DNA of 20,318 nucleotides. Source: a virus. Positions 6,037 to 12,531 of the stretch are shown in pieces (the first letter of the stretch is position 1; each line of letters begins with the position of its first letter). The notes under the pieces were generated by a model, which was not told the origin of the DNA, did no database searches, and worked only from the letters and a program-made list of their open reading frames with translations. Position numbers and translations under genes: made by a program. Where the stretch lies: the IMG/VR virus record IMGVR_UViG_3300019776_000124, positions 1 through 20,318 of that record; one strand, 5' to 3'.

Positions 6037-6811
6037 CGTAGGCCTCCATCTGCATGGAGAGGTTGACGAGGTTGCCGCCTGCCCGAATGGCCATGCTCAG
6101 CGTCTTGTCCTGATCGGCCCAGCAATAAGCCACGTCGCTGGTAAACACTCCTGGGGCTGAGGCCCAGACAAAGGCGTTCCCCTCGTTAAAGTGGTCGCGG
6201 AAGTCGGCCATGTCACTCAGCGCAAAGGTGTGCGTGATCGGCATGAATTGCGCCGATAGACTTGCCCCCGCCCGCTCAATCCTCTGCCCCCGGAAGTGCC
6301 CGCGCCGTGTGACGGCGGGGAACTTCTCAAGCCGCTCAGCAGCCCACACAGGGACATAGTCCGGGACAACCCCGCCCGGAATGACCAGCCGCGGCCCGAT
6401 CCACGCAACCCCGACCTGACAGGCTGCGCTGACCGTGAAGGCCCATGTCCCTGCCGTCGTCTCGGGAAAAACGATCATGAACGGGTCATTGCTGGTGGGG
6501 GTGTAGTTGGTGATCTCAACAAAGCCCGCACCAGCGTTGTATTGGATGCTGACCAACACCCCGGATAGCGTGTGCGCCGCGAAGAAAGCGCAGTCAGCGG
6601 CCTCCGGCGCGGCCATGGTCACGATGAAGGTATCCGATCCAGTCGGCGCCCAATACTCGCTCGTGTCCTGCGTCACCGCATCCGCCCGGGGTGCGCCCGA
6701 CGGCAGAAGCGCGTCGGTGATAGTGCCCTCGGCCAGGAGGTTGCGATAGGACACCATCGGCTGGGCGTTCAGTTCATCGTAAGCCGGGGTTCCTGGGACG
6801 ATCACGATCAT
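6026..6811 (-). CDS. Distal tail-like protein (gene directly after the tape measure)
   Basis: 261 residues, beta-rich, no membrane helix. Residues 1-140 contain an insert-like beta domain (SGVLVSIQYNAGAGFVEITN, then PFMIVFPETTAGTWAFTVSA). The C-terminal third (FRGQRIERAGASLSAQFMPI, later AIRAGGNLVNLSMQMEAYVE) has the strand pattern of ring-forming tail proteins such as Dit and tube-like folds. The ATG at 6811 overlaps the tape measure stop (ATGA). In lambdoid and SPP1-like phages the gene after the tape measure makes the ring joining tube and hub (gpM or Dit), and that is the inferred role here. Two cysteines near residues 74 and 131 are not arranged as a metal site. Confidence 0.68.
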   Translation of the reverse strand: MIVIVPGTPAYDELNAQPMVSYRNLLAEGTITDALLPSGAPRADAVTQDTSEYWAPTGSDTFIVTMAAPEAADCAFFAAHTLSGVLVSIQYNAGAGFVEITNYTPTSNDPFMIVFPETTAGTWAFTVSAACQVGVAWIGPRLVIPGGVVPDYVPVWAAERLEKFPAVTRRGHFRGQRIERAGASLSAQFMPITHTFALSDMADFRDHFNEGNAFVWASAPGVFTSDVAYCWADQDKTLSMAIRAGGNLVNLSMQMEAYVER

Positions 6812-8613
6812 ACGAACACCATCTGCGGGCCGGAAATGCCGCGCCGCTTGCCTTCCTCGAACAGTCCGTTCCAGACCTTTTCCCAGAACGCGCCGCTGTA
6901 TTGGGCGTCCCGGTCGATGCCGTAGACCTTGTATTCAATCGCAGGCCCACCGCCGGTCACGCCTTGCGCAGGGACCGATCCACCGGTGCCCCCGCCACCG
7001 CCGATGCCGCCCGCCGACCGAATGGCCGCAACACCCTTGAGGCCTGCCGCCAGCACCGAGGCATAGGCCGCGAACCGGCCCGCAAGCGTGATGCCCGGAG
7101 TGTTAAGCGCCTTGATGGCCGCGCCATAGGCGTTGACCGTGCCCTCGATGGCTTGGAACGTGGCGACGATCTTGGCTGTCTTCTGCCCGCCAGCCTGAGC
7201 CACACTGGCCAGCGCCCCGAACAGGTTGGCCGTGTCGCTGATCCGGCGCTGTTGCGCCTCTGCGTCAATCTCCGCGATGCGGCGCTGATATTCCTCATGC
7301 AGGTCAATCATGGCCTGATCGTGGGCCTGCTTGCCCATGATCTCCACCGCGCGGCGGTCCTGCAGAATGGCGAGGTTTTCCTCATACCATTCCGTCTCAA
7401 TCTCACGCTGCGACCGCAGGTTTTCGATCAGGGCCTGCAGTTCGGTGGCGTAAGGGTCGGACCCACCACCGCCGCCCCCACCTCCTCCACCGCCGCCGCG
7501 AGTAGGTATTGTGCGAATAACGCCGCCGCCCGCCTGCAATTCGGCCAGATCAGCCGACCCGATCAGCGGGCCTCCAGGCCCCATGCCACGCCCGCCGCCC
7601 ACGCCCGGCCCCTCTGACGCACCGGCCAAAGCCGCCTTGGCCGCGTAGGCATCCCACAGTTGTACTGCAAGCGCAGCAGCCTCGCTGATTGCACCCGAAA
7701 GCCATCCGGCCCCTGGGCCAGCCGTTGAGAGGGCATCTGCCGCTGCTTTGGCGTCTTCGGTCGTCTTCTTCAGTTCTGCCATTGCGATGGCGGCTTGGTT
7801 GCCCTCGATCAGCGCCTTGCGTAGTTCTGCCGGAAGCTGTGCGGAGTTCACGCCAGCCTGCCGGAGCGCGCTTTCGACATCGCGGATTGCCGCGATCTTA
7901 TCCTCGAATGTCACAGCATCCCGCAGCCGCGCGAACACCGCCTGCAATTCCTGCGCCTTGCCAACAGTGATGCCCAGATCGTTGGCCATCGCTACGGTGC
8001 CGCGCCCAATAGCGTCAGCATAGGCCTCTACGAGGGGCGCGGCCTCGATCAGCGTCTTTCCAAGCTGGATTTGCGCTTCCGCTGCCTGGTGCTCGATCAG
8101 GGCGCGCGTGGCATCACGCACTGCGAATGCGTAGAGGCCGTATCTTTCGTAGAGCTCCGGGAGCGTCAGGTTTAACGTTTCGGTGGACGACTTCAACGCA
8201 GCCTGAGCGTCTGCCAGATCACCCATGGCCTCTTCAAACGTCTTAATTTCCGCACTGCCGCTTGTGAACATGCTCACTAGCGCCGGGAGCGCAACGCTCG
8301 CCAGAACACCAGCCGCGATACCCACCGCGCCAAAGCCCATCGCCATGTCCGGCAGCTGGATGGACAGGGCCTGCACCCAATTCCCCGTGGCGCTTGCCTG
8401 TTGCGCCACCTGAGAAAGCTGCATCGCCATCATGCGGGACTGTTGCCCGCCTGCGGCCATGCCGGGGGCAAGCTTCCGGCCAGAGGTGTTCGACAAGCGA
8501 TCAGCAGCCATGTCCGCACGGCCAGCGGACAGCGCCAGTTCGTCCAGTTCCTTGGCGGCGCGCTCGGTCTGGGTCGAGTCCACCCGGATGCCTAGCTGTG
8601 CAACGTCGGTCAT
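6808..8613 (-). CDS. Tail tape measure protein
   Basis: 601 residues. It begins with the pattern typical of prophage tape measures (VDSTQTERAAKELDEL), followed by a hydrophobic segment at about residues 90-117 (MGFGAVGIAAGVLASVALPA). Long Ala-rich helices follow (residues about 120-300). A run of 12 glycines at residues 373-384 separates this from a second coiled-coil block (RSQREIETEWYEENLAIL onward). A second hydrophobic stretch lies near residues 505-535 and the last part is globular. Role: sets tail length and is released through the host envelope with the DNA. At about 0.15 nm per residue, 601 residues would suggest a tail of roughly 90 nm. It follows the chaperone pair directly (ATGA overlap), as usual. 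There is no peptidase motif that I can see. Confidence 0.93.
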   Translation of the reverse strand: MTDVAQLGIRVDSTQTERAAKELDELALSAGRADMAADRLSNTSGRKLAPGMAAGGQQSRMMAMQLSQVAQQASATGNWVQALSIQLPDMAMGFGAVGIAAGVLASVALPALVSMFTSGSAEIKTFEEAMGDLADAQAALKSSTETLNLTLPELYERYGLYAFAVRDATRALIEHQAAEAQIQLGKTLIEAAPLVEAYADAIGRGTVAMANDLGITVGKAQELQAVFARLRDAVTFEDKIAAIRDVESALRQAGVNSAQLPAELRKALIEGNQAAIAMAELKKTTEDAKAAADALSTAGPGAGWLSGAISEAAALAVQLWDAYAAKAALAGASEGPGVGGGRGMGPGGPLIGSADLAELQAGGGVIRTIPTRGGGGGGGGGGGGSDPYATELQALIENLRSQREIETEWYEENLAILQDRRAVEIMGKQAHDQAMIDLHEEYQRRIAEIDAEAQQRRISDTANLFGALASVAQAGGQKTAKIVATFQAIEGTVNAYGAAIKALNTPGITLAGRFAAYASVLAAGLKGVAAIRSAGGIGGGGGTGGSVPAQGVTGGGPAIEYKVYGIDRDAQYSGAFWEKVWNGLFEEGKRRGISGPQMVFV

Positions 8614-8951
8614 TTACGCTTGCCCTTCACTGCCGCCGGGGTGGCGATGCCTTTAGGCGGTTCGGTCGGTTGGCTCAGATGCTCGAGGTAGGCGGCATCC
8701 GCGGCCCGGATGCACTGGCGGAAAACAGCCCGCTCATGCTCATCCACCGGCCATGCCGCGATGCTTGCGGCGGGGATCGGGCCGCCCGCGTAGGCCCGAT
8801 CCGTCGACAATTCCCAGAAGGCTTCAAACCACGGCAGAACACCAGGAACAGCTTCCGGGGGTTCCATGTATTGCGGGATCGGGGCGCCTCGTTTCCGCAA
8901 TTCGGCCACGTTCCGACCGTGCCGCGCCTGCCACAAAACGAGGCTTACGAG
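8610..8951 (-). CDS. Tail assembly chaperone, T part of a G-GT frameshift pair
   Basis: This frame is open from the slippery site (CTC at 8951) to the TGA at 8610, 113 codons. It is probably read mainly as the C-terminal part of a 255-residue fusion made by -1 frameshifting from the upstream chaperone gene. A separate start would have to be the TTG at 8936, which lacks a convincing ribosome binding site. Residues are compact and rich in Trp/Pro/Arg (WQARHGRNVAELRKRG, then PGVLPWFEAFWELS). The family resembles the small phage tail assembly proteins found before the tape measure. In lambda, gpG binds the tape measure and the T part recruits tube protein; the same division of work is inferred. 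The stop overlaps the tape measure start (ATGA). Confidence 0.85.
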   Translation of the reverse strand, partial: LVSLVLWQARHGRNVAELRKRGAPIPQYMEPPEAVPGVLPWFEAFWELSTDRAYAGGPIPAASIAAWPVDEHERAVFRQCIRAADAAYLEHLSQPTEPPKGIATPAAVKGKRK

Positions 8952-8957
8952 TTTCCC
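8886..8957 (-). promoter_or_regulatory. Programmed -1 ribosomal frameshift signal (tail chaperone G/GT)
   Basis: Read on the minus strand, the heptamer GGGAAAC lies at 8957-8951, in phase as G GGA AAC. A 6-nt spacer (8950-8945) contains the zero-frame TAA. Then comes a perfect 9-bp stem, GCCTCGTTT (8944-8936) with AAACGAGGC (8894-8886). The 41-nt loop holds a second small stem (CGGCAC 8924-8919 with GTGGCCG 8909-8903, one bulge). Heptamer, spacer of 6 and stem are the classic elements, and lambda uses GGGAAAG at the same place in the same pair. The downstream open frame is exactly -1. Confidence 0.9.
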
Positions 8958-9376
8958 GAAAGTGTCTCCGTCTGGTCGGCTTGCTGCGCCCGAATGTCGA
9001 CCACCTGACAGGCGGCAATGCAGGCTCCGATCAGTGCCTCATAGCCCGCGTCCAGAACCATGGCCCGCACCTGATCCGCCGTGAAAGGCAGATCGCGGGC
9101 GTCGAGGATGCAGACCTGCGAAAGCACTTCGCGGGTATGGCGGGCGTGAACGCTGGGTAGGATCGTTTTGTCAGGCGCCCGCCCCTCTGGCGGGGTGGTG
9201 CGGGCTTTGCTGTTGAAGGCATCGCGCGCCGCGTCAGATGACAGGCCCCTGACCATCAGCGCGCCCTTGCCAAGCGACGGCACGTCATTGCCATCGACCC
9301 ACGCCCCGTCTGCCGCCAGTTCAAGCCGTTTCCGGGCAAAGAGCGGATGAGGCTCTGCTTTCTTGCGCGGAGGCAT
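8945..9376 (-). CDS. Tail assembly chaperone, G part (tube/tape-measure chaperone)
   Basis: 143 residues. The N-terminus is basic (MPPRKKAEPHPLFARKRLEL), a helical middle follows, and the end is TLSGNS. It is the expected size and place for the lambda gpG-like chaperone: directly after the tail tube gene and before the tape measure. The start ATG at 9376 overlaps the tube stop as TAATG. The last codons contain the heptamer G GGA AAC, and the stop TAA is 4 nt further on. Most ribosomes should stop here and give the 143-residue protein, while a minority shift to -1 and continue into the T part. It should be absent from the finished virion. Sequence similarity to named G families is weak, so the call rests on order plus the frameshift signal. 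Confidence 0.85.
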   Translation of the reverse strand: MPPRKKAEPHPLFARKRLELAADGAWVDGNDVPSLGKGALMVRGLSSDAARDAFNSKARTTPPEGRAPDKTILPSVHARHTREVLSQVCILDARDLPFTADQVRAMVLDAGYEALIGACIAACQVVDIRAQQADQTETLSGNS

Positions 9377-9825
9377 TACGCCTCCACGATGTTCGAGTTG
9401 ATTTCGATGGTGAAGTTCCGCATGTCAGCGGTGTTGGCGCTGCCCCCGGCCTTGCCCTTCGACATGACCATGCCGATGAAATACCAGGTTTCGCCGTTGC
9501 CCCACTCGACCTTGAATGCGTAATTGTCGGTGGTGGCCTGCGCCGCGATCAGCGCGATCTGCCCCGCGTCGGTCGGCAGGGCGGCAAAGGTGTTTTCCCA
9601 CGTCCCCGCATCGTTGGTGCCCTTGATCTTGACGACCCGGCCCCGGTTGATGAGCGGCGTGGCGATGGTTTCGGCAGTGTCGCCGATGGCCCCGCAAGTC
9701 TCCCAGCCGTCCACTTCCTGCCAGGTCTGGCCCGAGAAGTCTGCGGCGACGAAGTCTGCGGCTTGGCTGTCAAGCGCCTGCCCGATGAAAATCTTGCTGT
9801 CTGCAACTGCGAAAAGATCAGCCAT
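9376..9825 (-). CDS. Major tail tube protein
   Basis: 149 residues, no Cys-rich or membrane part. It has the beta-sandwich style of siphovirus tube proteins: an N-terminal strand with SKIFIGQAL, the loop WQEVDGWETCGAIGDTAE, the strand VVKIKGTNDAGTWEN, then FKVEWGNGETWYFIGMVMSK and a C-terminal strand FTIEINSNIVEA. It polymerises as rings around the tape measure to form the tail. The ATG at 9825 has a clear AGGAG box. The next gene overlaps its stop. Order (terminator, tube, G/GT, tape measure) is the standard one, so I am confident of the role. Confidence 0.92.
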   Translation of the reverse strand: MADLFAVADSKIFIGQALDSQAADFVAADFSGQTWQEVDGWETCGAIGDTAETIATPLINRGRVVKIKGTNDAGTWENTFAALPTDAGQIALIAAQATTDNYAFKVEWGNGETWYFIGMVMSKGKAGGSANTADMRNFTIEINSNIVEA

Positions 9826-11232: not shown

Positions 11233-11499
11233 ATGCGCCTTGCCCTATTCGCCCTGCCGGTCCTTGCCGCCTGCGTCCCTGCCCCTGATGCACCCGGCGC
11301 AGTGACTGCCTACAACGGCAACACCGTGACAATCCGCAGCGGCGGGGATTTCAGCCTTGCCAATGCCGGGAAGGGCTTCGAGCCAACCCCCGCGGTGGTC
11401 GCTCAGGCACAAGAGGTTTGCCCCGGCGCGAAGTTCGCCTCAGGCACTGGCATCGAAGGCGATGCTTGGCTGGTGGATTACCTGTTCATCTGCCCCTGA
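11233..11499 (+). CDS. Small lipoprotein on the opposite strand (moron)
   Basis: 88 residues, the only credible plus-strand gene here. The ATG at 11233 has GGAGG 5 nt upstream. Residues 1-14 (MRLALFALPVLAAC) are a short lipoprotein signal: Arg2, hydrophobic core, lipobox L-A-A-C with Cys14 as the expected lipidated residue. The mature part is soluble, with Cys63 and Cys87 likely to form a disulfide (EVCPGAKFASG and YLFICP at the end). Small lipoproteins with this 'C-x-x-A-x-F/Y ... YLFxC' ending are common in Rhodobacteraceae chromosomes, where they are unnamed. It would lie antisense to the late transcript, divergent from the gp10-like gene and overlapping the end of the Mu F-like gene by 14 bp. 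Possible role: change of the host envelope, such as superinfection exclusion. No convincing promoter is visible. Confidence 0.78.
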   Translation: MRLALFALPVLAACVPAPDAPGAVTAYNGNTVTIRSGGDFSLANAGKGFEPTPAVVAQAQEVCPGAKFASGTGIEGDAWLVDYLFICP

Positions 11500-12247
11500 A
11501 CGGCGCGAAATAGTCGATCTTGATTTCGTAGTAGCACCGGCACTGGATGATCTCGCTCGCCGGTGCCCCGCGTGACGTATCGTGCGGGAACATCATCTGC
11601 GCCCCGGTCAGGGGGGAGACGAACGGCTCGTCAAGCCCCGCCTCCGCACCGTTCAACGCAAGGTGACTGTCCCTCGTTCTGTCGTCGCCGGTTGCGCGCC
11701 AGATTTTCTTGACCTGCGACCGCTGGACCTTGCCGGATTCCACCAGTTGCCGAATGCCTTCCTCTTTCCCCGCGTTCAGCCCGGCCAGTGTTTCATTCCG
11801 GGCTATGACCTCGCCACGCAGAGCCAAGAGTCGATCCTTGTAGCGCCCCGTGATCCGGTCCACGTCGGCGCGAGACAGCGGCTTGCCATCCCTGATCGCC
11901 CTCTGAACCAACCGGTCAAACCGTGCATCCCGCCGCGCCCGCGTCAGGTAGTTCCGCAGTTGCGCTGGGTCGCCGCTCAGGAGTTCAGCCCGCGCCCGGA
12001 TGACCGCGTCCGTCTGCGCCGCGTTCAAGCCCAGGATGCCGCCTTCCCGCAGTCCTGTGGCCCGGTTGATGCGGCCCGTGATTTCCAGCGCCGTCGCGCG
12101 CGGGTTCTGACCTTCGGCCTGCCCTGCCTCAAGGGCCAGCCGCACGGCTTCCTTGCTGTCCTCTACGATGCCTTCAATCAGGTTGCCCGCCTGCTGGCGC
12201 ATCCACCGCTCCGCGCGCGGGTTGCGCGCGTCGAAGCGGGTTACAAC
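11486..12247 (-). CDS. Mu F-like head morphogenesis protein, C-terminal part (reached by -1 frameshift)
   Basis: The frame is open from GTT at 12247 to the stop at 11486, 253 residues. The first residues, VVTRFDARNPRAERW, already look like normal Mu F family sequence, so coding begins before the first ATG (12202). Downstream are helices and, near the C-terminus, the family signature: IWRATGDDRTRDSH, LNGAEAGLDEPF, MMFPHDTSRGAPASEI and CRC. Joined to the 95 residues before the slip site it makes a 348-residue protein, a normal size for the family. Mu F-like proteins are minor head proteins, probably injected or placed near the portal. A separate start at 12202 with GGAG 6 nt upstream is possible. 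Unlike many phages the gene is well separated from the portal gene. Confidence 0.87.
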   Translation of the reverse strand, partial: VVTRFDARNPRAERWMRQQAGNLIEGIVEDSKEAVRLALEAGQAEGQNPRATALEITGRINRATGLREGGILGLNAAQTDAVIRARAELLSGDPAQLRNYLTRARRDARFDRLVQRAIRDGKPLSRADVDRITGRYKDRLLALRGEVIARNETLAGLNAGKEEGIRQLVESGKVQRSQVKKIWRATGDDRTRDSHLALNGAEAGLDEPFVSPLTGAQMMFPHDTSRGAPASEIIQCRCYYEIKIDYFAPFRGR

Positions 12248-12253
12248 TTTCCC
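12206..12253 (-). promoter_or_regulatory. Candidate -1 frameshift signal in the Mu F-like gene
   Basis: The minus strand reads GGGAAAG at 12253-12247, in phase as G GGA AAG, then TTG TAA. After a 7-nt spacer come an outer stem CCGCT (12239-12235) with AGCGG (12210-12206) and an inner, all-GC 7-bp stem CGCGCGC (12230-12224) with GCGCGCG (12218-12212), loop AACCC. GGGAAAG is the lambda G/GT heptamer. The next frame is exactly -1. A one-base deletion in the A run would look the same at the protein level, so this could also be a mutation or a base-calling error. Confidence 0.65.
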
Positions 12254-12531
12254 CCGGTGTCCGGGTCGGGAATGACCGGCAGACCGGACAGCGCCCGGAA
12301 TCCCCCTTCGATGTAGGCCCCTTGAATAGCCCGATCCAGCGGGGCAAAGAACGCCGGGTCCAGGTTCAGCACCGCTACCAGCCGCTGCACATCACCGGCC
12401 TTGATGGCGTCGATCACAAGGGCCATCTGCGCCTCTGACCTGATGTCCATGATGGACCGCAGGAAGGCATCGCGAATGACCGGCTCCATCGCGTCGATCT
12501 GGCGCTGCAGGGCAGTGGGGAAGCGAGCCAA
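12241..12531 (-). CDS. Mu F-like head morphogenesis protein, N-terminal part
   Basis: 96 residues in the zero frame: MARFPTALQRQIDAMEPVIR, then helices (AFLRSIMDIRSEAQMALVID, 'AIKAGDVQRLVAVLNLDPAF', DRAIQGAYIEGGFRALSG) and the end PDPDTGGKL. This helical 'GD ... LNLDP' block is what normally forms the first 90 or so residues of a full-length Mu F-like protein. The start is a TTG at 12531, supported by a GGAGGG box about 7 nt upstream. The stop TAA comes two codons after the slippery heptamer. On its own the product would be a short helical domain lacking the conserved C-terminal motif. If frameshifting is programmed, both forms are made. Confidence 0.82.
   Translation of the reverse strand: MARFPTALQRQIDAMEPVIRDAFLRSIMDIRSEAQMALVIDAIKAGDVQRLVAVLNLDPAFFAPLDRAIQGAYIEGGFRALSGLPVIPDPDTGGKL

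Follow-up and report, generated by a model that had tools for sequence, protein, structure and literature searches.

The question raised by this locus is how the second of two adjacent open reading frames, both lying between a tail tube gene and a tail tape measure gene, comes to be translated. The window, meaning the whole stretch of DNA analysed, is the 20,318-base virus record IMGVR_UViG_3300019776_000124, in which the tail genes lie on the minus strand in the order tail tube protein, G, GT and tape measure. Upstream, the gene for the tail tube (major tail) protein (9376..9825, minus strand) matches PHROG 158 with an E-value of 1.5e-23, its match to Pfam Phage_TTP_12 being below the cut-off, and the tape measure gene downstream (6808..8613, minus strand) matches PHROG 9483 (E 2e-10). 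The stop codon of the tail tube gene overlaps the ATG of G as TAATG (9378..9374, minus strand).

The G-like tail assembly chaperone frame (zero frame, 8945..9376, minus strand) encodes 143 amino acids followed by TAA. Its 3' end reads G_GGA_AAC-TCG-TAA, with the slippery heptamer G_GGA_AAC at 8951..8957, the sole GGGAAAC within G, and a 6-nt spacer, TCGTAA (8945..8950), that contains the zero-frame stop (8947..8945). A perfect 9-bp stem starts 6 nt 3' of the heptamer, formed by the 5' arm GCCTCGTTT (8936..8944) and the 3' arm AAACGAGGC (8886..8894), with T-G as a tenth pair. The loop of this outer stem (8897..8931) holds two nested helices, one of 4 bp (8931..8928 with 8900..8897) and a hairpin of 7 bp interrupted by a single bulged base (8924..8918 with 8910..8903). 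The -1 frame stays open over the 84 nt 5' of the heptamer and on to a stop at 8612..8610, and the GT part in this frame (8610..8951, minus strand) comprises 113 codons (8951..8613) and TGA, so that a slip at the heptamer would give a G-GT fusion of 142 + 113 = 255 residues. The earlier note had placed the heptamer near the end of G, the stop in the spacer, the stem with a second stem in its loop and the 255-residue fusion in the -1 frame, and all of these are borne out by the sequence to the base. It mentioned neither the Shine-Dalgarno (SD)-like GGAG at 8966..8969 (minus strand), a possible upstream stimulator separated from the heptamer by 8 nt, nor the second frameshift site, in a head gene, described below.

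In the coding sequences of the window, about 6490 codons, there are 18 in-frame X_XXY_YYZ heptamers. Of these, just two are followed after 3 nt by a zero-frame stop and also have a long -1 frame: the tail site, with a -1 frame of 115 codons, and the head-gene site, with 255 codons. A scan of the window for Rfam matches and tRNAs returned none.

The identity of the two frames agrees with this gene order. The GT part matches Pfam PF23812 Phage_TAC_18 (E 3.2e-6, 27.6 bits against a curated cut-off of 27) and PHROG 3817 'tail chaperonin' (E 3.9e-12), which upholds the proposal that a G/GT pair lies before the tape measure; the G part has a weak match to PHROG 19222 (E 0.0016). No sequence match was seen between the G-GT proteins and the lambda proteins.

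Alignment of the site in relatives had been named beforehand as a test of the frameshift. Searches with the window protein alone, or with its halves, against viral contigs and phages gave no matches; relatives were obtained via the tail tube gene and then by small alignments. Seven loci picked up as DNA pattern matches (L018-L020, L022, L023, L025 and L026) were not supported as relatives. The closest relative is a metagenomic phage, L002, whose fusion is 67% identical and in which G is also conserved. Its heptamer and spacer are identical to those of the window, and the two share the identical stretch TCGGGAAACTCGTAAGCCTCGT. Between the window and L002, substitutions at the three codon positions number 31/16/63 in the zero frame 5' of the slip and 25/19/56 in the -1 frame 3' of it. 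Third positions take most of the changes on either side of the slip, counted in the zero frame before it and in the -1 frame beyond it, which shows selection on both parts.

Beyond this pair, a Pseudaminobacter salicylatoxidans prophage (34% identity) carries G_GGA_AAC at this position too; its zero-frame stop comes 51 nt after the heptamer, and it has a hairpin of its own. Five prophage loci from a search of one bacterial class (L013-L017) have A_AAA_AAC or G_GGA_AAC at the site, and a slippery heptamer occupies the same place in L002, L009, L017, Rhizobium phage RHph_Y60 and many other phages. Among the phage chaperone relatives retrieved, a -1 heptamer is present at this place in all (15 of 15). 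Heptamers ending in AAC make up 20 of the 23 sites across the chaperone family, about half of which have the zero-frame stop directly after the heptamer. The tail site of the L044 contig reads A_AAA_AAC, followed at once by TGA, and shows no notable structure. The GT match in L044 lies at 1250-1564 of that record (locus L053, reverse strand), and the G part there differs from that of the window. Since the head gene of L044 is nevertheless 83% identical to that of the window, the G/GT module appears to be mosaic within the group.

The anatomy of the site, the switch of frame, the homology of the parts, their conservation and the selection on both frames are thus directly established. The gene order, the Pfam and PHROG chaperone matches of the -1 part and the relatives that switch frame at the same spot all support the reading of the tail site as lambda-type G/GT programmed -1 ribosomal frameshifting in the tail assembly chaperone gene of a siphophage, which we consider very highly probable.

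From this we infer the slipping itself, its rate, the roles of the stimulators and the chaperone function, as follows. Most ribosomes would stop at TAA and make the 143-residue G-like protein, while a minority would slip back by one base, from GGA (P site) and AAC (A site) onto GGG and AAA, and read on to make the G-GT fusion. The stem-loop downstream would probably raise the slip rate by pausing the ribosome, and the SD-like GGAG upstream would perhaps help the slipping. By analogy with lambda, G would coat the tape measure protein and the tail of GT would recruit tail tube subunits, the slip rate setting the G:GT ratio. Since motifs of the type ...A_AAC are poor at -1 shifting in E. coli compared with ...A_AAG (PMC4066793), the rate could be low. 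The TGA of GT and the ATG of the tape measure gene overlap as ATGA (8613..8610, minus strand), as they also do in L002, and translation of the tape measure may be coupled to ribosomes already shifted into GT.

The part played by the stem is less certain than the shift. Under a codon-preserving null, the 65-nt fold at the window site has a z of about -1.2 (p about 0.12), and a stem of such length anchored at the site has p 0.046. The structure signal over the whole family looked strong under the same null, but control positions in the same genes were negative too, showing that this null is too generous. Therefore, within-gene ranks were relied on, each site being ranked among the other positions of its own gene. 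By this measure, the anchored stem of the window is in the top 2% of G positions (rank 0.02) and its fold energy in the top 6%. The pairing probability of the 9-bp stem in the window is about 0.9-1.0 in contexts of 70-140 nt, and its distance from the heptamer lies in the range of about 5-9 nt of bacterial hairpin-stimulated -1 signals. In the family, 11 of the 23 sites rank within the top 10% of positions in the gene concerned (Kolmogorov-Smirnov p 3e-5, the relatives not being independent), which indicates that about half of the relatives have site-specific structure and the rest do not.

Base for base, the tail stem is common to only two sequences. The 3' arm in L002 retains CGAGGC, so that the lower 6 bp and one wobble pair are kept but not the two pairs at the top of the 9-bp stem; in contexts of at least 110 nt the outer stem of L002 is displaced by another fold, whereas that of the window holds. 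No strong stem was found in KL1, HMGUpa1, RcMotherGoose, Xp15, a Vibrio phage or the L044 contig. As for the SD-like element, anti-SD pairing of GGAG is in the top 4% of the gene (rank 0.04) and similar elements recur in relatives, but Glu codons are conserved there as well, which explains part of the recurrence and confounds the signal.

It is possible, if rather unlikely, that the shift is real but the stem is incidental to GC-rich coding sequence, with the heptamer alone setting the rate. The p of about 0.12 for the window by itself would fit such an incidental stem, as would the several relatives that lack strong structure, the control positions that look structured under the same null, and lambda, which works without an anchored stem. 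The perfect 9 bp at the right spacing with their within-gene rank, the lower stem kept in L002 and the 11 high-ranking sites of the family point the other way. A putative role of the stem as a stimulator of slipping, although not a universal one, is plausible on these predictions. The earlier note had held the structured stimulator to be much longer than that known for lambda; this stands insofar as lambda has no comparable stem, but a structured stimulator is not exceptional, given KL1 and about half of the relatives.

A far less probable explanation is that GT forms a gene by itself, initiated either at the TTG at 8936 or by ribosomes that reinitiate past the TAA of G. This TTG, the earliest possible GT start, lies 8 nt past the G stop, and L002 carries GTG-ATG at the corresponding position, which leaves some room for reinitiation. 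The TTG, however, has no SD-like sequence at normal spacing, in line with the earlier view that GT lacks a good start of its own, and the first ATG follows only at about 8867. The five residues between the slip and the TTG are conserved in the -1 frame. Separate starts are not conserved either: L009, L013-L017 and the phages have none there, yet the -1-frame homology begins directly after the heptamer (N-L....W). These observations favor the programmed shift. That the frame break reflects gene decay or a mistake in sequencing or assembly has a negligible probability and is refuted by the relatives since, although the window is a single metagenomic contig, the same break occurs at the same base in the independent contig L002, equivalent breaks occur in many complete phages, and third-position bias is seen in both frames.

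The programmed shift at the tail site has clear precedents. The lambda G/GT pair shares the gene order, a -1 shift near the end of G and a T part in the -1 frame before the tape measure, but its heptamer is GGGAAAG and no comparable stem lies at the right distance (45-nt fold rank of 0.82 in its gene). In the Burkholderia phage KL1, which was compared together with other Septimatrevirus/Kilunavirus-type chaperones, the G-like gene of the gp18/gp19 pair carries GGGAAAC at its end, and the pair is annotated as one joined frameshift product (PMC3483164). Its authors describe the heptamer beside a stop with a predicted stem-loop, and call such structures often found (PMC3483164). KL1 differs from the window in having TGA directly after the heptamer, no strong structure by the measure used here, and an extra gene between GT and the tape measure. 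The Caulobacter phages Colossus (GGGAAAC) and phiCbK (AAAAAAC) have the same kinds of heptamer in the chaperone gene before the tape measure; they are much larger phages, and the passages of the paper on these sites describe no stimulator (PMC3556154). In view of KL1, Colossus, phiCbK and lambda, the tail site represents a known mechanism and a known type of site.

The sections on these systems in a review of frameshifting cover the lambda mechanism, a haloarchaeal G_GGA_AAC, the multi-helix stimulator of IS911, and the stimulation of -1 shifts by SD-like elements 9-14 nt upstream (PMC5009743). The combination of SD-like element, heptamer and 3' hairpin, with more than one helix in IS911, may liken the tail site to E. 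coli dnaX and IS911, which differ in being other genes with other heptamers and in having, in the same sections, experimentally proven stimulators (PMC5009743), whereas those of the window are predicted.

The second site lies in a minor head (Mu F-like) gene (12531..11486, minus strand), which matches Pfam Phage_Mu_F (E 1.5e-10) and PHROG 3517 head morphogenesis (E 3.4e-106). Its zero-frame part (12241..12531, minus strand) has a TTG start and encodes 96 residues, ending at a slip site G_GGA_AAG (12247..12253, minus strand) with a zero-frame stop 3 nt on. The site reads ACC-GGG-GGA-AAG-TTG-TAA, and the -1 frame continues as VVTRFDARNPRAERW; with the -1-frame part (11486..12247, minus strand), the full fusion would have 348 residues. 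A hairpin (12204..12240, minus strand) has a 14-bp core starting 7 nt past the heptamer.

G_GGA_AAG and the switch of frame are also present in L043 (90% identical), L044 (83%) and L002 (76%), at L043:2039, L044:2773 and L002:595. The hairpin occurs in all four phages and is among the most stable folds of the gene (45-nt rank 0.003); in its core, 13 of 14 pairs are invariant across the four, the remaining C-G being changed to U-G. Between the window and L002, substitutions by codon position number 13/6/33 in the N-terminal part, read in the zero frame, and 44/27/115 in the C-terminal part, read in the -1 frame, so that third-position changes indicate codons constrained in the zero frame in the former and in the -1 frame in the latter. 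The ATG at 12202, which a gene caller would pick as the start of the second part, is missing from L044 and L002, both of which have CTG instead.

In more distant relatives the head protein is encoded in one frame. Each of the best 50 phage matches of the head protein aligned in one piece, the match lengths in L046-L049 fit one frame, and the Pseudaminobacter head-gene copies are single open frames. An in-frame head protein occurs at two loci (L054 and L056, on contigs C12 and C10) of the Pseudaminobacter salicylatoxidans genome G001, which presumably belong to two related prophages. Since the split is conserved in four phages and one continuous frame is found in more distant relatives, the switch in the head gene is derived, and from its sequence pattern it looks like a conserved second programmed -1 frameshift.

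A literature search for frameshifts in minor head proteins, incomplete in its coverage, found none. The part of the review that treats frameshifted virion proteins names the major coat proteins of T7/T3, A2 and Listeria phages and the major tail protein of Listeria phages, and no minor head protein (PMC5009743). The head-gene frameshift would thus be more novel than the tail site, no such description having been found for this class of head protein.

The tail site shows a textbook mechanism in clean, well-anchored form in a sparsely sampled phage group. It belongs to a chaperone family in which ...A_AAC heptamers predominate, often but not always accompanied by a hairpin further on or by a stop right after the heptamer. 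Of the two sites, the one in the head gene is the more important, the second use of the mechanism in a head gene being the less expected part. It is likely that programmed -1 frameshifting is used twice in this phage group to set protein ratios: once in the tail chaperone, with G_GGA_AAC and a stem, and once in the Mu F-like head gene, with G_GGA_AAG and a hairpin, the latter use giving a short and a full-length product. If true, the head-gene site would extend the list of virion proteins made in two forms by frameshifting to a minor head protein.
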